DNA of 64,000 bases from a bacterium (GTDB lineage: Bacteria > Eisenbacteria > RBG-16-71-46 > CAIMUX01), in the NCBI GenBank assembly GCA_030431975.1, contig JAUIHP010000005.1, positions 62,001 to 126,000 on the forward strand, given 5' to 3'. The stretch's first letter is position 1; the number at the start of each line of letters is the position of its first letter. A program made the translations under genes and the position numbers. Below are positions 1,670-16,458 of this stretch, one piece after another. The notes beneath the pieces were generated by a model. That model had not been told where the DNA came from, made no database searches, and saw only the letters and a list, made by a program, of their open reading frames with translations.

Positions 1670-3996
1670 GGGTTCTTAAGCTCCTCGATTCTTGAAGCCA
1701 CGTCCGATTCCCAACCCAGTGAGCCTAGTCTTTCTCGGGCAAAGCGGGTCCAGAAGGCCTCCGGGTGTTGCTCGATCAGTTCTTCATAGGCGTGACGAGC
1801 CGCTTCGACCCGTCCCTTGATGAAGTGGCAGTTTCCGATCTGATATCGAGCCCAGATCTTTTCGTCCTCGGGCGCATCGACGGCCAGAAGCTCTTCGTAG
1901 GCGTCGAGAGAGGCATCGATCTCTCCGTGCTGAAACTCCAGGTCGGCGGAGCGGGCCAGTCCGCGAAGGGAAAACGGACCTGTCACTTCACGAGCCAACT
2001 CCCGGTAGAGAGCGAGCGCTTCCAAACCGCGTTTGTCTTCGTCGGCCAGGCGTGCGCGCATGAGCAGAGCCTCGGCCCCTCCGGGATCGTCCGGCGAGAC
2101 TTGCTTCAGGTGTTCTTCCGCGCTCCGGGCCTTTCGGGCGAGGAAGTCCTCGCGGCCGAAGGCGTAGTGGTAGCGGGCTCTCCAGCCCGTGTCCTCGTAG
2201 AGGTGTCCCCAGTTCTCCATCCGCTCGAGCACGGACTCGCGGTCGCCGTTGTCGAAATAGATGGCCAGGAGTTTCTCGAAGAACTCAGGCCCCAGGTAGG
2301 TCGTGTTCGGAAGCTCGCCCATCAGGTAGAGGGAAGCGGTCTTCCCGGCGCGGTCCGTGGTCATATAGATCTCGTGGAGGAGCAGGCCCGCCTGTAGTCC
2401 TGCGGGATAGTCGCCGTAGTAGCGAAAGCAACGTTCGGCCCGGCGTTCCGCTCCCTCGATGTCGTTGACGAGCCAGTCCTCGATCGCCGCCTCGAGAAGA
2501 TGTCGAGCCCGACGCGCACGCAGGGAGTCGGCCGACTCCAGCGGATCTTCCTCGTCGAAGTCCTTCCAATCCTCAAACTCCTCTTCGGCCATCAATCGGT
2601 CGTTGAGCTCTTCGTCGCTCAGCACGTCGCCGTCGGGCGTCTCCGTGATGTCTTCGACGTTGTCTTGGCCGAGCAGCTCTTCCAGCGTTTCTCGCATGCT
2701 GTCGAGCTTGTGCTTTTCGTTCTTTCCGGCCGATTCCCTGGAGTCCTCTCCGTCATCCGGGCCGGTCGCGACATCTTCGGGTGATTCGGAATTCGTCGTT
2801 TCCGTGGAGTCCGTCGCCACGGCCGGGGTTTCGCGTGTCGCCAAGACTCCCGGGTCCGATCTCCACTGGTCGTCTGCAATGTCGATCTCGTTCGCCAGGT
2901 CGTCGTCCTGCCTGTCGTCCTGCCTGTCGTCCTGCCTGTCGTCCTGCCCGTCGTCCTGCCCGGCGTCTTGCCCGTCACCTTCGCCTTCGCTCGGGTCCTC
3001 GGTTGTCTCTGAGGGAGTGTCCGACTCCGCAGAGTCGTCTTCGGAGTCGGTGGAAGCCTCGTCCCGGGACTTCTTCGAGTTGACTCTGGCAAGAATGTCC
3101 GCGATGTCCTCGATGCCGCGTTCCAGCACCTCTTCGGGAGACTCGTCCGTACTGTCTTCAGCTGTGTTGGCTGTGTTGGCTGTGTCGGCTGTGTTGGCGT
3201 TGCCGGCGTTCTCGGTCTTGTCGGCTTCGTCGGTCTTGCCGGTGTTGCCGGCTGTCTCGGCGGCGCCCGACTTGTTCACCGCATTCGACGCAGCCCTGCC
3301 AGCGTCAGCCGTATCCGCGGCTTGCCTCGTATCCGTGGCGTCCGCCGCTTCTGCCTTCGCGACAGCCTCATCGGGATCGGTCTCACTCTTGTCGTCGGAA
3401 TCCCGTTTCGCCGCGGTCTCGGGCTTCTCAAAAGCATCGGCCGCGGCTGCCGTCAGGCTCTCGACCATCTCGCCCGCCCCTTCCAGGTGCAGGCCTTCTG
3501 CCGTGACAATGGCCGTCGGCGCTTTCAAGTTCGCCGCTTCGACCAGCACGTGAATCTCGTTGCCGACCCGCCGCGCTTCGTAAGGTGTGATCTTGTTCAA
3601 CTCCAGAGTCATGCGAACCCGGCGATCCAGCGGGTTGTTCGCAAACTGGCTGGTTCGGAAGATCTTCACCGGCCCGCGGTCGAGTTCGACTTCGTAGAGC
3701 GCCGGTGCGTTGGGAAGGACGCTGAGCGCATCGGCAAAATCGAGAATGATTCGTGGCGGATTGGCCAAGGTCCAATGAGCCCACGTGGCCTGGGTCGGTA
3801 TTTTCAGAACGAACCAACCGGGCTGACTCTCGATCTGAACGCGTTTGATTTCGAACTTCGGGGCCGGGTCCGCGGCCTCGACCGGCGAAACAAACGGTCG
3901 CAAAACCCCGCACGCCAACAGCACCAACGTCCCCACGACGAAGGCCGCGCGCAAACCAGGCCCCTTGGCTGTCAGAGATGCCATTCTAAGCTGCAT
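1666..3996 (-). CDS. AMIN-domain protein with long acidic low-complexity linker and C-terminal TPR repeats
   Basis: 776 residues from the ATG at 3996, which has a GGGAGG ribosome site 10 bases upstream inside the preceding gene (11-base overlap). Positions further upstream would give a longer frame but lack a ribosome site. An N-terminal hydrophobic segment (about residues 12-33) is a signal anchor. An AMIN-like domain (about 50-155) contains NPPRIILDF and NPLDRRVRMTLEL. About 300 residues rich in D, E, S, T and A follow, including four DDRQ-type units. The last about 270 residues are helical TPR-like repeats. AMIN domains target envelope proteins to peptidoglycan or secretin-type complexes, so an envelope scaffold is likely. 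I know no named family with this architecture. Confidence 0.7.
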   Translation of the reverse strand: MQLRMASLTAKGPGLRAAFVVGTLVLLACGVLRPFVSPVEAADPAPKFEIKRVQIESQPGWFVLKIPTQATWAHWTLANPPRIILDFADALSVLPNAPALYEVELDRGPVKIFRTSQFANNPLDRRVRMTLELNKITPYEARRVGNEIHVLVEAANLKAPTAIVTAEGLHLEGAGEMVESLTAAAADAFEKPETAAKRDSDDKSETDPDEAVAKAEAADATDTRQAADTADAGRAASNAVNKSGAAETAGNTGKTDEADKTENAGNANTADTANTANTAEDSTDESPEEVLERGIEDIADILARVNSKKSRDEASTDSEDDSAESDTPSETTEDPSEGEGDGQDAGQDDGQDDRQDDRQDDRQDDDLANEIDIADDQWRSDPGVLATRETPAVATDSTETTNSESPEDVATGPDDGEDSRESAGKNEKHKLDSMRETLEELLGQDNVEDITETPDGDVLSDEELNDRLMAEEEFEDWKDFDEEDPLESADSLRARRARHLLEAAIEDWLVNDIEGAERRAERCFRYYGDYPAGLQAGLLLHEIYMTTDRAGKTASLYLMGELPNTTYLGPEFFEKLLAIYFDNGDRESVLERMENWGHLYEDTGWRARYHYAFGREDFLARKARSAEEHLKQVSPDDPGGAEALLMRARLADEDKRGLEALALYRELAREVTGPFSLRGLARSADLEFQHGEIDASLDAYEELLAVDAPEDEKIWARYQIGNCHFIKGRVEAARHAYEELIEQHPEAFWTRFARERLGSLGWESDVASRIEELKNP
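2903..2962. repeat. 12-bp in-frame tandem repeat in the AMIN protein gene
   Basis: About five near-perfect copies of a 12-bp unit (GTCGTCCTGCCT on the plus strand, the last copies varying at one base) encode repeated DDRQ/DDGQ on the minus strand. The copy number could vary without changing the frame. Confidence 0.85.
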
Positions 3997-10229: not shown

Positions 10230-11639
10230 TTAGCTGCCGAGGAGACTGCTCGTTCCCAATCGGCTTGAGAGATAGTTCTGTTCGCTGGTCAACGTTCCGA
10301 TCAGGGTCTGCAGCTCGGCCAACCTTTGCAGCAGCGCCTCTTCACGAATGGCCAACGTCTCTTCGAAGGCGGCAATTCTGGAGTCGAACAAATCCTGGCG
10401 CGCTTCCGCGGCCTCGATCTGCTGATCTACGATTCCGCCGACTCGGGAATAGGAATCGAGGAACGTCTCCAGACGGGCTGCGACACCCGTCTCGCCTCCG
10501 ATCAATTCTTCGACCGTTTCCGGCTCTGTCTGAAGGGACGTTCTCAGCACCGATTCGTTGATGCTGAGGCGGCCTTCCCGATCGGCCTCGATGCCCACCG
10601 AGGCCAAGCCTTTGAGGACGCCGTTGACTTCCAGGGGATCGGTCAGGAGCTGCCGAAGACCCGTGCGAAGATTGCGGAAGGTCGAGGCGCCCGCCAGGAT
10701 GCCCCGGTCGTTCCCTTCGTCGTCACTGGGGCGTGTCAGGTTCCGGATCTCGTCGAGCGCGGCATTGTAGGATTCGACGAAAGACTGGACCTCTTCCAGA
10801 ACCTGATCTTCGTCACGCTGCACTTCGAAGGACTCCGGTCCCTCGGAGACGGTGATCAGACTCAGGCTGATTCCGCTGAGCACGTTCTCGATCCGGTTCG
10901 TCGAGGACTTCACTTCAAGGCCGTCAATCTCGATGTGCGCGTCGGCCGCCTGTTGCACGGTTCCCCGAAGGTTGCCGTTCTCGTCGATCCCGCTTCCGAT
11001 CTGCAGTTGGGAGAAGAGAGACCCCTCGAGATCGGTGATCCCGGTGATCTGGCCGGCCTCCCCCGAGCCCTTGGCCTGCACGAGCAGACGGACCTCACCG
11101 CCGCCGACGCGCACGAGCGACGCCGACATCAGTTCGGACTGCGAGGAAACCGCGGAAACGACCTCCGCCAGAATCGCTTCGTTGTCTGCATCGGCCGAGA
11201 CCGAGACTTCGATTTCCTCGATGGTCTCGCCGGCCTGAACTTGAAACTTGTACGTCGCGCCCTCAGGACCCGGCGCCGGATTGAAGCTCGTTTCGTCTCC
11301 CACGATCGCGGCTGAAGCCAACGACTGGCGGCTGGCCAACGAGTGGACCTGAATCGTGTGCAGTCCCGGCGCGGCGGTGTTGCCGGCCGTGGCGCGGTAA
11401 CTCGAGGTCTCTCCGCTAACCTGGAAACGCCGGATGGGCGAAAGTGAGCCGGACTGTGAGAAGTCGCTGGCGATTCTACGGAGCGAGGAAAGCCGGCTTG
11501 CGATCGTCCGCTGCGCACTCAGCTGCGCACCGACGGTCGCCCTTTGGTTTTCGATCTGGACGAGCGGCTGTCGCTCGATCGTCATGAGAGCGTCCGTCAG
11601 GTCGAGCAGAGCCTGTCCGGTTGCGGAGACGACTTCCAT
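10230..11639 (-). CDS. fliD: flagellar filament cap protein FliD
   Basis: 469 residues. The N-terminal heptad-rich segment (LLDLTDALMTIERQPLVQIE) and FliD_N region lead into the central FliD_C domain (EIDGLEVKSSTNRIENVL, ISLSLITVSEG). A C-terminal coiled coil (EETLAIREEALLQRLAELQ) ends with the usual YLSSRLGTSSLLGS-like tail. FliD caps the filament tip and folds exported flagellin. The ATG at 11639 has AAGGAAC upstream. It lies 103 bases after fliS and heads the group that includes the FlaG-, FliT- and FlgM-like genes. Confidence 0.93.
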   Translation of the reverse strand: MEVVSATGQALLDLTDALMTIERQPLVQIENQRATVGAQLSAQRTIASRLSSLRRIASDFSQSGSLSPIRRFQVSGETSSYRATAGNTAAPGLHTIQVHSLASRQSLASAAIVGDETSFNPAPGPEGATYKFQVQAGETIEEIEVSVSADADNEAILAEVVSAVSSQSELMSASLVRVGGGEVRLLVQAKGSGEAGQITGITDLEGSLFSQLQIGSGIDENGNLRGTVQQAADAHIEIDGLEVKSSTNRIENVLSGISLSLITVSEGPESFEVQRDEDQVLEEVQSFVESYNAALDEIRNLTRPSDDEGNDRGILAGASTFRNLRTGLRQLLTDPLEVNGVLKGLASVGIEADREGRLSINESVLRTSLQTEPETVEELIGGETGVAARLETFLDSYSRVGGIVDQQIEAAEARQDLFDSRIAAFEETLAIREEALLQRLAELQTLIGTLTSEQNYLSSRLGTSSLLGS

Positions 11640-11742: not shown

Positions 11743-12069
11743 TTACGCAGACGACGACGGGGAAGGAGCGGCGAGCGCCCCTTCCCAAGCCGTCAAAAGT
11801 TCCCGGAGATTCCGTTCCACACTGTCCAGGTCACCTTCCCGGGCCTGGTGCAGCATGTACTCGTACATTCGAAGCAGACTCAGGGCGAGATCGCCCTTTT
11901 CGAGATCCAGTCCCCCCATCAACTCTTCCAGAGCCCGAACCACCACTTTACGCCGGCCAGTTTCGCAGGCGTGAATCGCGTGTCGGTACACCTGGGCCAG
12001 AAGACGATCTGTCCCGGCTCCGTCCATTTGCTGTTGCCGGTAGACCTGACGAGGATCACGAGGGTGCAT
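11743..12069 (-). CDS. fliS: flagellin export chaperone FliS
   Basis: 108 residues, the usual FliS length is about 120-130. It shows the family pattern: an early Y with Q-rich helix (QVYRQQQ), DRLLAQVYRHAIHACE, ALEELMGGLDLEKGDLALSL, and LLRMYEYMLHQA before a final helix ending in LLTAWEGAL. FliS binds the flagellin C-terminus and prevents premature polymerisation. A strong ribosome site (GGAGGTAACC) precedes the ATG at 12069. It lies 73 bases downstream of the flagellin gene, as in many flagellar clusters. Confidence 0.9.
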   Translation of the reverse strand: MHPRDPRQVYRQQQMDGAGTDRLLAQVYRHAIHACETGRRKVVVRALEELMGGLDLEKGDLALSLLRMYEYMLHQAREGDLDSVERNLRELLTAWEGALAAPSPSSSA

Positions 12070-12142: not shown

Positions 12143-12982
12143 TTATCCGAAGAGCGAGAGAATCGACTGCGAGTTCAAGTTGGCCTGGGCCAACATCGCC
12201 GTCGACGTTTGCTGCAGGATCTGCATCTTGGTCAGATCCAGCTGCTCCTTGGCCAGGTCCGCGTTCCGAATTCGGCTGAAGGCCGCTTCGGTGTTGATCT
12301 GAGCCACGGAGACGTTTCCTTCCTTGATCGTGAAACGATTGATGAGTGACCCCAAGTTCGTCAGGGCGGAACTCACCGTGGAGATCGCGTTGTCGATCTC
12401 GTCCAGATACTGGGTCGAGGTCGTACTGTCGATCGCATCGTCACCCGTCAAGGCGATCAGGTTCGTCATTCCGAGGTCGGTCGGAGTAAACGCTTGCGTC
12501 GTGTACTGAGTACCGCTCCGCTCCGCCGTCTGGAAATTGAACGTTGTGCTCGAGTTGAGGAGGCTCACGCCGTTGAACTCGGTGTCCTGGGCGATGTCCT
12601 CGATCTCGGCGACGAGGTTGACGAGCTGGCGACTGATCGCCTGTCGTTCCTCGGTACCGAGGGTGTCGTTTGCAGCCGTCACGACCTTCTCGCCCATGGA
12701 GACGAGAATGTCGTTGATGCTGAGAAGACCGCCTTCAGCAACGGAGAGCAGGTTCTTGGCCTGACCAATGTTGTCGAAAACGGCTTGGAGAATCCGGTTT
12801 CGCGCGTCCAGCTTGGTCGAGATGGAAAGACCGGCCGGATCGTCTCCCGCCGAATTGATCTTCTTACCCGTACCGAGCCGGAGCTGGTGCGTGGCGACGT
12901 CGTTGTTCACGTCGCGCAGAGTCCCCAAGATGTTCAGCCCCTGAATATTGGAGCGGATTCTAGTTAGATCGCTTACAGCCAT
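12143..12982 (-). CDS. fliC: flagellin (short form)
   Basis: 279 residues. The conserved N-terminal D0/D1 region contains RLGTGKKINSAGDDPAGLSI and EIEDIAQDTEFNGVSLL. The conserved C-terminal D1/D0 region contains SRIRNADLAKEQLDLTKMQI and ends LNSQSILSLFG. The variable outer domain between them is very short (about 60 residues), so the filament surface should be almost only D0/D1. ATG at 12982 with GGAGGTC upstream. A sigma-28-like promoter and a structured 88-base leader lie upstream. This is the only flagellin gene in the window. Confidence 0.96.
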   Translation of the reverse strand: MAVSDLTRIRSNIQGLNILGTLRDVNNDVATHQLRLGTGKKINSAGDDPAGLSISTKLDARNRILQAVFDNIGQAKNLLSVAEGGLLSINDILVSMGEKVVTAANDTLGTEERQAISRQLVNLVAEIEDIAQDTEFNGVSLLNSSTTFNFQTAERSGTQYTTQAFTPTDLGMTNLIALTGDDAIDSTTSTQYLDEIDNAISTVSSALTNLGSLINRFTIKEGNVSVAQINTEAAFSRIRNADLAKEQLDLTKMQILQQTSTAMLAQANLNSQSILSLFG

Positions 12983-13019
12983 CTTCGATGACCTCCGGGA
13001 ATTGGCCGCCTGAGCGACC

Positions 13020-13049
13020 GGGTGTCCATACCCTGTGGCGGGTCCCCCG
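13020..13049 (-). promoter_or_regulatory. candidate CsrA-binding hairpins in the flagellin leader
   Basis: Two small hairpins present GGA in their loops. CGGG-GGA-CCCG lies at 13049-13039, and GGGT-ATGGAC-ACCC at 13033-13020. A third GGA lies in the ribosome site CCCGGAGG. CsrA binds GGA motifs in hairpin loops, and B. subtilis hag has such a pair repressed by CsrA and relieved by FliW. With csrA and fliW directly upstream, the same control is likely here. Confidence 0.6.
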
Positions 13050-13076
13050 ACACGAGTGACGGGTTACCTGGTCTGA

Positions 13077-13103
13077 TTTTCGGAGTCGATACGGACATCT
13101 TTA
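13077..13103 (-). promoter_or_regulatory. sigma-28 (FliA)-like promoter of flagellin
   Basis: The minus strand reads TAAAGATG, an 11-base spacer, then TCCGAAAA. The sigma-28 consensus is TAAAGTTT-N11-GCCGATAA. Spacing is exact, with matches to 6 of 8 bases in each element. The predicted transcription start is near 13070, giving a leader of about 88 bases. Confidence 0.65.
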
Positions 13104-13240: not shown

Positions 13241-13271
13241 CAAAAACAAAAGCGAGGCGGTCACCTCGCTT
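13241..13271 (-). terminator. intrinsic terminator after csrA
   Basis: On the minus strand AAGCGAGG-TGACCG-CCTCGCTT is followed by TTGTTTTTG. The 8-bp GC-rich stem plus U-run is a strong rho-independent terminator. It separates the flgN-flgK-flgL-fliW-csrA unit from flagellin. Confidence 0.85.
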
Positions 13272-13279
13272 CCATAAGC

Positions 13280-13304: not shown

Positions 13305-13559
13305 TTATTCCCCGACTTCGCCTCTTTTCTTACCCTTGTTGAAGATTTGGGCGACTTCTTTCAGGGCACGACTGGATATGCCAGACGCACGCCGGTTCTC
13401 GTCGCGAATTCGTTCATAGATTTCTTCACGGTGGACGGCGACGTTGGGCGGAGCATCGATTCCGAGCTTCACTTGCCCGCCCTTGACATCGAGGATAATG
13501 ATCTTGATCCGATCCCCAATGCGTATGTTTTCGCCCAACTTCCGTGTCAGGATCAGCAT
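13305..13559 (-). CDS. csrA: carbon storage regulator CsrA
   Basis: 84 residues from the ATG at 13559, with GGGGAGG upstream. The sequence begins [16 protein letters not shown] and contains [21 protein letters not shown], which are diagnostic of CsrA. The C-terminal tail (about 25 residues past the core) is longer than in E. coli. CsrA binds GGA hairpins in mRNA leaders and blocks translation. It follows fliW, as in Gram-positives and spirochaetes, and its likely target is the adjacent flagellin leader. Its own ribosome site also contains a GGA. Confidence 0.96.
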
Positions 13560-13614: not shown

Positions 13615-14097
13615 CTACCGGTAGACCTGAGCCCGTAGGCGGGAGCGGTCCGAGGACGTTTCCGCCGCATCCTCCAACTGAATCGGATGCCTGAAGGCGT
13701 AGGAAGGGTTGTAGACCACGACCTGCTTCGCTACACGGTTCCGGGTATTCAATACCACAGGACCCTTCAGATTGGCAGTAATCTTCTCAGGACCGTCCGA
13801 AGGTGTCACCAGCACATAAGTTTCGGTGACATCGCCCTCAGCGATGTCCAGGAGATCCAGATCGGATTCGGCAAGCGGTGCTTTGTACCCCTCGCCGTAG
13901 GCCAGCTTCGGGTCGACGACCGCGAAGCACAAATCCGGATCTTCCTCGCAAACCAACCAACGGAACGGGCCACAGCCCGGGGCGTCGACCAGAACATACT
14001 TCTTCCGGTCTTCGAATCCGAGAATCCCGTCCGGCATGTACACGCTCGCTTCCGCGGAGACCTCGATCTCGCCGAGCGTCTTGGACCGGAGAATCAT
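13615..14097 (-). CDS. fliW: flagellar assembly factor FliW (CsrA antagonist)
   Basis: 160 residues from the ATG at 14097, which has GAGGA at good spacing; a GTG two codons earlier is too close to it. Family features are TLGEIEV near the start, [18 protein letters not shown], and [21 protein letters not shown] near the end. FliW binds CsrA and releases flagellin translation when free flagellin is low. The C-terminal 20 residues are unusual. It sits 14 bases after flgL and before csrA. Confidence 0.93.
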
Positions 14098-14111
14098 GAC
14101 CACGTTCCTCG

Positions 14112-15023
14112 CTAGATGTAGTTCAAGAGACTTGCCTGAAGAATCCTCGACCCCGCATTGAGCGCGGCATCGAGGGCCACCTGGTTCTGGTTGAACTCGA
14201 GAAGAGCTCGCGCGACATCCAAGTCTTCGACCTGCGTTCGCGATGCTTCGTTCTCGACCTCATCCGCTTCCAGGCGGATCTTCATGGACTCGGCTCTCGT
14301 CAGAAGGGATCCCACCAACGTGTGAGTTCCCACTACTCGATCTTGCGCATCCTCGAGGCCCTGTGCGGTATCAACGATCCCTTGCTGATCACCCGCGAGC
14401 AGTGCATCTCGAAGATCCAGAAGCGTTTGAAACAGCTCCTGTTCCTCTCCGAATACATCGGAACCCGAAACATGGATGCTGAGAGAAAGATCACGACCAA
14501 CCTGTCTGACAACGTCTCCATCGATGCCGTTGGGGTTGACCGTCACACTTTGTACGAGATCGTCCTCGCCGATCGTCATGGTGTATGCGGATTCGAGCGT
14601 TCGCGTTCCCGAGAAGAGATGAACGTCGGCGAACTGCGCGTTTCCGAGGTCGACCAACTCCTGTAGAACCTGATCGATCTGACGAGCCAACGCATCGCGT
14701 CCGTCCTGACCCTTGGCGTCGTCCGCTCCCTGCACCTGCAGACTCCGCGCCTCGATGACCTTCTCCTGGATGAGAAACATCGTGGAGTCGACCGCGTTGA
14801 GGTGTGAGAGAACGACACCCATGTTCTTCTGATACTGGGCATTCGCACGCAGACGTTCGCGGTACTGCATGGCCGTGTTCGTTCCGACCGGGTCGTCCGA
14901 CGGCTGGCGGATGGCCTTTCCGTCGGCCAAACCACGCTGCAGTTTCAGGACCGTCTGCTGAGACTCGAGAACGGCACGCGCAATCGTGTCATGAAGCGCG
15001 CCGGTGGAGACTCGATACGTCAT
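14112..15023 (-). CDS. flgL: flagellar hook-associated protein FlgL (HAP3)
   Basis: 303 residues, typical for FlgL. Flagellin-like ends: an N-terminal helix with LQRGLADGKAIRQPSDDPVG and a C-terminal helix with VEDLDVARALLEFNQNQVAL and ASLLNYI. The middle contains NAQFADVHLFSGTRT, a FlgL signature. FlgL joins the hook-FlgK junction to the filament. ATG at 15023 has only a weak ribosome site. It follows flgK, separated by a spacer with an 11-bp tandem repeat. Confidence 0.93.
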   Translation of the reverse strand: MTYRVSTGALHDTIARAVLESQQTVLKLQRGLADGKAIRQPSDDPVGTNTAMQYRERLRANAQYQKNMGVVLSHLNAVDSTMFLIQEKVIEARSLQVQGADDAKGQDGRDALARQIDQVLQELVDLGNAQFADVHLFSGTRTLESAYTMTIGEDDLVQSVTVNPNGIDGDVVRQVGRDLSLSIHVSGSDVFGEEQELFQTLLDLRDALLAGDQQGIVDTAQGLEDAQDRVVGTHTLVGSLLTRAESMKIRLEADEVENEASRTQVEDLDVARALLEFNQNQVALDAALNAGSRILQASLLNYI

Positions 15024-15102: not shown

Positions 15103-16458
15103 CTAGATAGCGAGGAGCACGTCGATCATCTGTGATGCCGTCGTGAACACCCGGGCCGCCGCTTCGTACGCCTTCTGACTTTCGACGAGGTTCGTCAGCT
15201 CTTCATCCAGACTGACTCCGTTCACGGCCTGCCGTTGGTTCTCGACCGCTTCCAGTGCCACACCTTGCGATGTACTGAATGAATCGGCTTGGCGCGCCAT
15301 GCTGCCGACTCCGTTCACGAGTTGTCGGTAGTAGTCCCCCGGAGTCGCCGTCCCTTGAAGCAGGAATCGGGAGTCACGAAGCTGCGCGATGGCGACAGCA
15401 ATGTCGTTGTCACCCGGATCACCGGAGCTTCCCGCGTTGATGAGGCTCGGATCGTTCTGGACCTCGAGCGTCACCTCCATGTCTTCGGCGGTCGAGCCCC
15501 GAAAGAAGTCGACGCCGGTCGGCCCCGCGCGATGCAGTTGATTGACCTGTTGGACGAGCCCGCCGACCAGAGTGTCGAACTGCGACATGACCTCCGGGAT
15601 GACTTCCTCCCGAGCGTGGACCAGTCCGCCCAACTGTCCGCCGATGTTCGAGGGCGCAGTCCCATCGGAGGCAAAGACGATGCGGACATTGAGTCGGCCG
15701 CTGACGGTGTAGCGGTCGGCACGCAGAGATGTCACCTCGGTGCCGTCGACGACGGTACGGCTCCCCAAACGCACGACGACCGTTCCGTCGGCGCGTTCGA
15801 GGTGCTCCGCTCCCGCCTGGTCCGCAAGACCGTCCAAAAGGAGATCCCGCCGGTCACGAAGATCGGCGTCCGTTCCGCCCGTCGTTTCCGACTGTTGGAT
15901 CATGAGATTGAGTCGAGCGACCTCATCCAGCTGTTCGTTGATTTCGACGACGCGCTGGGCAATGTTGGTGTCGGTCGACTCCAGAAGGTCCCGGAAACGG
16001 GAGCGCTGGTTGGCCAAGCCGTCGGTCAACTCCTCGCCGGCGCGCAGGACGACCGAACGTGTCCCGAAATCTTCCGGCTGGTTTGAAAGCTCGTACCAGG
16101 CGTTGAAGAAGTTGTCGAGAAGCGCGGCGACACCGGTGTCCGAAGGTTCACCGATGACCCCTTCGATCTGGCCCAGAACCTGGGAGCGGGCTTCCCACTC
16201 ACCCGCCAGGGCTTTCTCCTGGCGAAACTGCGCATCGAGAAACGTATCGCGCGCGCGCTGTACGTCTTCGAGTCGAACTCCCGTTCCGACGATGCCCCAC
16301 GGGGTCTTTTCCGGAACGTCCGGAACCAGATTGGGACGTTGACGAGAGTATCCCTCGGTGGCCACGTTCGCGATGTTGTGGCCAGTGATGGTCATGGATG
16401 ACTGATGCGCAAGCAGCGCGCGCCGGGCGATTTCCAGTCCTTGTATGAGTCCGGGCAT
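15103..16458 (-). CDS. flgK: flagellar hook-associated protein FlgK (HAP1)
   Basis: 451 residues. The N-terminus has the rod/hook-family motif MTITGHNIANVATEGYSRQR. The C-terminus carries GVSLDEELTNLVESQKAYEA and ends ASQMIDVLLAI, both characteristic of FlgK. FlgK is the first junction protein on the hook. The protein is shorter than the E. coli homologue (547), lacking part of the variable domain. It lies 12 bases after flgN. Confidence 0.95.
   Translation of the reverse strand: MPGLIQGLEIARRALLAHQSSMTITGHNIANVATEGYSRQRPNLVPDVPEKTPWGIVGTGVRLEDVQRARDTFLDAQFRQEKALAGEWEARSQVLGQIEGVIGEPSDTGVAALLDNFFNAWYELSNQPEDFGTRSVVLRAGEELTDGLANQRSRFRDLLESTDTNIAQRVVEINEQLDEVARLNLMIQQSETTGGTDADLRDRRDLLLDGLADQAGAEHLERADGTVVVRLGSRTVVDGTEVTSLRADRYTVSGRLNVRIVFASDGTAPSNIGGQLGGLVHAREEVIPEVMSQFDTLVGGLVQQVNQLHRAGPTGVDFFRGSTAEDMEVTLEVQNDPSLINAGSSGDPGDNDIAVAIAQLRDSRFLLQGTATPGDYYRQLVNGVGSMARQADSFSTSQGVALEAVENQRQAVNGVSLDEELTNLVESQKAYEAAARVFTTASQMIDVLLAI

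Follow-up and report, generated by a model that had tools for sequence, protein, structure and literature searches.

A flagellin leader beside fliW-csrA with a conserved predicted CsrA hairpin, and AGAA-loop leaders in relatives that carry FlbT

The 64,000-nucleotide stretch of bacterial DNA analysed here (the window) carries a flagellin gene directly behind fliW and csrA, and the question it raises is whether the leader of the flagellin mRNA is the site at which CsrA would control flagellin synthesis. The reading preferred here is that this leader serves as the CsrA target in a CsrA-FliW-flagellin homeostasis circuit, with a probability of about 0.86.

Genes and leader elements of the locus

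Pfam matches give the gene order flgK-flgL-fliW-csrA-flagellin-fliS-fliD, flgL being named from its position (Table 1). The genome of the window has one CsrA and one FliW, and neither FlbT nor FlaF was found in it (G000). csrA and fliW, beside which a preliminary description of this DNA had placed the leader, lie directly upstream of it, and the leader elements are flanked by a terminator-like hairpin 3′ of csrA and by the flagellin ATG. The csrA terminator is supported mainly by its position, because shuffled sequences give as many terminator-like sites (5 observed in the scanned 7 kb and 5.3 in shuffles).

Table 1. Coordinates of the flagellin locus and its leader elements (positions of the window)
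Feature	Positions	Strand	Basis or remark
fliD	10230..11639	-	FliD_C 7.2e-46
fliS	11743..12069	-	PF02561 9.1e-09
flagellin (ATG at 12982)	12143..12982	-	Flagellin_N 2.5e-29, Flagellin_C 8.3e-19
Shine-Dalgarno with GGA, CCCGGAGG, predicted weak CsrA site 2	12992..12999	-	direct reading of letters
spacer hairpin GGUCGC-UCAG-GCGGCC, site 1 to Shine-Dalgarno	13004..13019	-	MFE; ensemble probability ~0.25
site 1, hexaloop hairpin GGGU-AUGGAC-ACCC, main predicted CsrA site	13020..13033	-	direct reading of letters
site 0, triloop hairpin CGGG-GGA-CCCG, possible extra CsrA site	13039..13049	-	direct reading of letters
sigma-28-type promoter TAAAGATG-N11-TCCGAAAA	13077..13103	-	direct reading of letters
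intrinsic terminator after csrA	13246..13275	-	13-pair stem and T run
csrA, 84 aa (start at 13559)	13305..13559	-	PF02599 8.9e-25; R44/I51/N55, second C-terminal helix
fliW	13615..14103	-	PF02623 1.1e-29
flgL	14112..15023	-	Flagellin_N 1.2e-11; FlgL name inferred from position
flgK	15103..16458	-	FlgK_D1 3.8e-49

FliW of the window matches the solved FliW of 5dmb (6.1e-16), and its CsrA aligns over residues 2-72 with the CsrA of this FliW-CsrA complex. This CsrA has R44, I51, N55 and the C-terminal helix LKEVAQIF, and so carries the features named for FliW binding in the available parts of two papers (PMC7829508, PMC13407953); V51, N55 and the C-terminal extension are needed for FliW binding by CsrA of C. 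jejuni (PMC7829508), and N55 by that of Geobacter (PMC13407953). Among the 47 genomes from the class of the window, CsrA is present in 34 and FliW in 9, all nine of which also have CsrA. Residues were compared in 26 of these 34 CsrA proteins (9 from genomes with FliW and 17 from genomes without; the other 8 were left out). A second, LREVA-like C-terminal helix is present in 9/9 of the former and in 0/17 of the latter, which were judged by eye and have Pro/Gly-rich or charged tails instead. I51 occurs in 26/26 and N55 in 25/26. Because the helix divides the two groups and N55 is found in both, it is the second helix that tracks FliW within the class; N55 was rejected as a marker of FliW, since 16 of the 17 FliW-less proteins keep it. 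The FliW-less CsrA proteins (loci L108-L126, compared with L128-L135) have thus retained I51 and mostly N55 with the second helix gone.

The flagellin gene is likely preceded by a sigma-28-type promoter, as read from the letters. TAAAG-N15-CCGA matches once in the whole window, at the flagellin leader; this match carries little weight by itself, because 21 of 100 shuffled windows contain at least one, and weight is added by its position and by the presence of T[AC]AAG-N15/16-CCGA in five of the six other class leaders of window-type flagellin, the leader of G005 having none. A sigma-28 family protein (TIGR02479, 255 bits) is encoded on the contig of the window, beyond the window itself (G000:C28:36032-36703). 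Spacing, class leaders and this protein together support the sigma-28 promoter of the earlier claim, here read as the leader's own.

All leader elements named in the preliminary description were found again on the minus strand where it had placed them. The GGA of site 1 lies 18 nt from that of site 0 and 31 nt from that of the Shine-Dalgarno (SD) element; the SD GGA (12996-12994) stands in the context CCGGA and departs from the ANGGA rule. The three GGA elements that had been proposed differ in standing: site 1 is conserved and covarying, the SD element is a weak candidate with CCGGA in place of ANGGA, and site 0 is plausible, with a position that is not conserved. The folding check that had been proposed gave a divided answer as well. 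The MFE fold contains GGGT-ATGGAC-ACCC and the spacer hairpin but not CGGG-GGA-CCCG, whereas the ensemble reverses this order, with a probability of ~0.26 for the site 1 hairpin and ~0.70 for that of site 0. The main hairpin reaches ensemble probabilities of 0.06 in G005 and 0.01 in G028, and of >0.79 in G009, G010, Calditrichota and CSMAG. CsrA binding may itself favour the short hairpin. The stability of the whole leader (z -1.04 against shuffles) is uninformative and was rejected as evidence.

Conservation of the main hairpin and the predicted circuit

The genome of the window (6.19 Mb) has a single match to GGGTAYGGANACCC, the pattern of the main hairpin. Over the 47 class genomes this pattern has 8 matches, of which 4 lie at flagellin leaders (the window, G009, G010 and G028) and 4 elsewhere; the reversed control pattern has 6. 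A hexaloop with a stem score at least equal to that of the window was found in 1 of 1000 shuffles of the window leader. For comparison, 13 leaders of window-type flagellin were gathered: that of the window, six from class relatives and six from four named records (two KSB1, two Calditrichota (Calditrichaeota), one 'bacterium' CSMAG and one Anammoxibacter). The nearest named flagellins to that of the window are from KSB1 (51%) and Calditrichota (49%). Two results count against the circuit: no FliW turned up in the named loci of KSB1, CSMAG and Anammoxibacter, and the window flagellin as query had no match in the FliW-carrying genomes G003 and G007. Nine of the 13 leaders carry an A-N-GGA-N hexaloop hairpin between -30 and -70 (shuffles, 0.5%), as against none of 16 flagellin leaders of FliW-less relatives and none of 30 from the class of another genome, G355 (shuffles, 0.2-0.5%). 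The four of the 13 that lack it are those of G004, G008, one KSB1 and Anammoxibacter. They too count against the circuit, G004 and G008 lacking the hairpin although they have FliW.

The nine hairpin-bearing leaders were aligned (A3) and the other four excluded. Over this alignment 94.4% of the cells of the four stem pairs are paired, a percentage biased high because the rows were picked for having the hairpin. Stem covariation reaches 0.542, a value attained by none of 500 shuffles (0.193), and shifting the pairing partner abolishes the signal. UA, CG, AU and GC all occur as the apical pair, and GGA is invariant. This change of pair type is not explained by the choice of rows alone, and the proposed covariation check came out in favour of the main hairpin. 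In G028 (L130, C135) the hairpin precedes a flagellin gene ~11 kb from csrA-fliW on the same contig; the hairpin therefore goes with flagellin and not with the csrA end. Two ANGGA hexaloops, 18 nt apart, are seen in this leader despite the distant csrA-fliW. The G010 leader has a second GGA hairpin of 9 pairs, and ANGGA, in place of the CCGGA of the window, is found at the SD of several relatives. Conservation of the third hairpin (site 0) was considered and rejected, as relatives have no counterpart at the same position.

By analogy with known systems, CsrA would bind and repress at this leader and FliW would relieve the repression. Sigma-28 would transcribe a flagellin mRNA whose leader, counted from the promoter, should be ~90 nt long. 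The first pocket of a CsrA dimer would take the GGA of the hexaloop hairpin and the second either the GGA near the SD, 31 nt off, or the upstream GGA, 18 nt off, by which translation would be blocked. With flagellin exported, free FliW would sit on the C-terminal helices of CsrA and the mRNA would be released; with export halted, FliW would be held by flagellin and CsrA would stop translation. The preliminary view of a CsrA-repressed and FliW-relieved leader draws support from the genes, the promoter match, the hairpin, its covariation and the CsrA residues, and fits less well at its SD site, CCGGA. Rfam gave no match at the gathering score in the window and seven relative loci (8 sources), and so none to a CsrB-like antagonist small RNA with many GGA hairpins.

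Several features of the leader could also be expected if its hairpins were by-products of GC-rich sequence and the SD GGA were a ribosome site, with CsrA directed at other genes and flagellin controlled by sigma-28 and anti-sigma only: the leader is no more stable than its shuffles, the main hairpin has a low probability in the ensemble, and it is missing from 2 of the 7 class leaders of window type. Conservation and covariation of the hexaloop, a pattern unique in the genome, its absence from the leaders of FliW-less relatives and the FliW-contact features of CsrA make this unlikely. Equally improbable is that FliW is mainly an export or assembly factor and that CsrA acts on the stability of flagellin mRNA rather than by blocking the ribosome, since several relatives keep a GGA close to the SD or in it, as fits a block of translation; CsrA of B. 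subtilis does also lower the hag transcript level, by a mechanism given as unknown in the available part of PMC6529632.

The possible third site named in the preliminary description leads to a stronger form of the preferred reading, compatible with it, in which all three sites work: sites 0 and 1 would clamp one CsrA dimer, the SD element would take a second, and the leader would be both target and CsrA sponge. This is doubtful, as the site 0 triloop lacks the A of ANGGA and lies outside the MFE fold, its position is not conserved and the extra sites of relatives stand at other positions, though its 18-nt spacing to the main site equals the optimum quoted for a CsrA dimer (PMC4894983), its hairpin is the more probable one in the ensemble, and the paired hexaloops of G028 and the second hairpin of G010 speak for it.

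AGAA-loop leaders in genomes with FlbT

FliW and FlbT are mutually exclusive within the class, and the leader hairpins differ accordingly. FlbT is found in 7 and FlaF in 10 of the 47 genomes, and FliW and FlbT never occur in the same one. The FlbT-carrying genomes have a flagellin distant from that of the window (~25% identity), and each of the seven has two sigma-28 matches over the cut-off, which together suggest a second flagellar system. Among their leaders, counted over the retrieved flagellin copies only, 13/13 show an AGAA-loop hairpin between -45 and -49, and 12/13 show AGAA near the SD (L137-L143, L147, L162; families f10/f8). The stems of these hairpins differ, among them CCGGC/GCCGG, CGTTGGC/GCCAGCG, CGGGC/GCCCG and CGCGGGC/GCCCGCG, and a single alignment of the f10/f8 leaders (A2) mixes two loop lengths. 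Neither the upstream AGAA element nor that at the SD occurs in any of the 13 FliW-type leaders, and 12 sources with AGAA leaders had no Rfam match at E 0.5 or below. In G023, G030, G017 and other f10/f7 genomes, sigma-28 and CsrA are present with no match to the window flagellin; these genomes may be filament-less, have a divergent flagellin or contain gaps.

Four further leaders come from genomes without a FlbT match. Both leaders of G041 (82% complete, FlbT not found) have AGAA, which is absent from those of G006 and G020, genomes in which FlbT was likewise not found and FlaF lies directly 3′ of flagellin (L146 for G006; L137:3793-3857 and L212:15855-17237 for G020). Judged by these two loci only, AGAA thus tracks FlbT and not FlaF. 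The G020 leader has GGA loops at both AGAA places, cgggcAUGGAgcccg and ctctcttCGGACaaggggg.

AGAA hairpins also occur in flagellin leaders of two FlbT-carrying genomes from other groups, G355 and G311 (L160, L161). The class of G355 is probably Alphaproteobacteria, an assignment made because its flagellin matches alphaproteobacterial plasmid genes (26-45% identity). In 30 flagellin leaders listed from this class (L163-L192, part of a longer list, from three families with many close relatives), the upstream AGAA hairpin is present in 29, the SD element in 29 and both in 28, against 0.03% in shuffles; their stems are of many different kinds, and FlbT lies within ~1.5 kb in 27 of the 30 loci. A covariance model (R1) built from 20 of these leaders has a stem covariation of 0.479 against 0.159. 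Over the 47 class genomes it gave 21 matches at E ≤ 1, of which 6, ranks 1, 2 and 4 included, are flagellin leaders of FlbT-carrying genomes; its specificity is limited, because the other 15 lie elsewhere and are taken as chance. A local search over 19 loci gave seven matches at E ≤ 1, all of them flagellin leaders. R1 missed the leaders of G014, G025 and G041 (two), as well as five further ones of FlbT-carrying genomes (one each in G032, G038 and G046, two in G033), and had no match in six named plasmid records.

Of these records, that of Pelagibacterium has both AGAA elements and FlbT annotated beside flagellin. The AGAA hairpin is absent from the other five (two Azospirillum, one Methylobacterium, Acetobacter and Pseudorhizobium), including Azospirillum ramasamyi, where FlbT is annotated beside flagellin, and so a universal AGAA element in Alphaproteobacteria was rejected. 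A search of plasmid DNA with the FlbT locus of G311 gave no match. The plasmid leaders of Pseudorhizobium flavum (L208:1661-1810, 2860-3009) have gggCATGATGcc-like hairpins with AUGAU loops and no AGAA, possibly another loop variant.

These leaders make the AGAA loop a candidate recognition element of FlbT. We lean slightly towards a single leader plan, the first hairpin lying ~35-65 nt upstream and the second at the SD, under which the loop would specify its reader, A-N-GGA for CsrA/FliW and AGAA for FlbT/FlaF; one or the other would be used by each lineage of the class, the plan would have arisen more than once, and the AGAA pair would be the RNA element of FlbT. This exchange of loops among relatives deserves to be followed further. 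If AGAA is read by FlbT, the FlbT target becomes directly testable and could be predicted in genomes elsewhere, and the two flagellin checkpoints would offer a clean example of convergence in RNA regulation.

Comparison with known flagellin checkpoints

FlbT-FlaF has been called possibly analogous to CsrA-FliW (PMC4894983). The Caulobacter pair resembles the predicted circuit in that a protein with an opposing partner binds the flagellin 5′UTR (PMC4347634, PMC3930126), and differs in being made of other proteins, FlbT being absent from the genome of the window. Binding of the 5′UTR by Caulobacter FlbT is credited to Anderson and Gober 2000 (as cited in PMC3930126, PMC4347634), and the available part of PMC4347634 lists FlbT without a motif and its mechanism as 'unresolved'. 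An AGAA element of FlbT was not found in the literature searched, most subscription papers lying outside it, and Anderson and Gober 2000 may describe leader structures.

CsrA of Geobacter sulfurreducens, which binds FliW, is like that of the window in having a C-terminal extension and N55, and the flg operon of this species contains csrA and fliW; the gene order there is csrA-fliW, and the available part of the paper describes no flagellin leader (PMC13407953). The CsrA-FliW-Hag system of B. subtilis likewise has fliW-csrA genes, and there CsrA occludes the SD of the flagellin mRNA and FliW is a noncompetitive inhibitor of CsrA (PMC6529632). It belongs to another phylum and has another leader sequence, and binding in the window is a prediction from sequence.

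The closest parallel is CsrA-FliW-FlaA of C. jejuni, where the flagellin 5′UTR has two ANGGA hexaloop stem-loops, the second over the RBS (PMC4894983). The preliminary description had called the full circuit informative in an outer-membrane bacterium. As novelty this does not stand: C. jejuni, itself an outer-membrane species, has the circuit with a two-hairpin leader of the same kind, so that it is not new outside Gram-positives (PMC4894983). C. jejuni and the window further share the sigma-28 promoter, FliW and compensatory stem changes. They differ in that fliW lies apart from csrA in C. jejuni and beside it in the window, in the distance from the main site to the SD element (21 nt in C. 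jejuni and 31 nt, with CCGGA, in the window), and in the possible upstream third GGA of the window (PMC4894983). What the window adds to these systems is a class that has been little studied, to which it extends a known checkpoint on flagellin and in which the CsrA hexaloop has, by its covariation, been retained.
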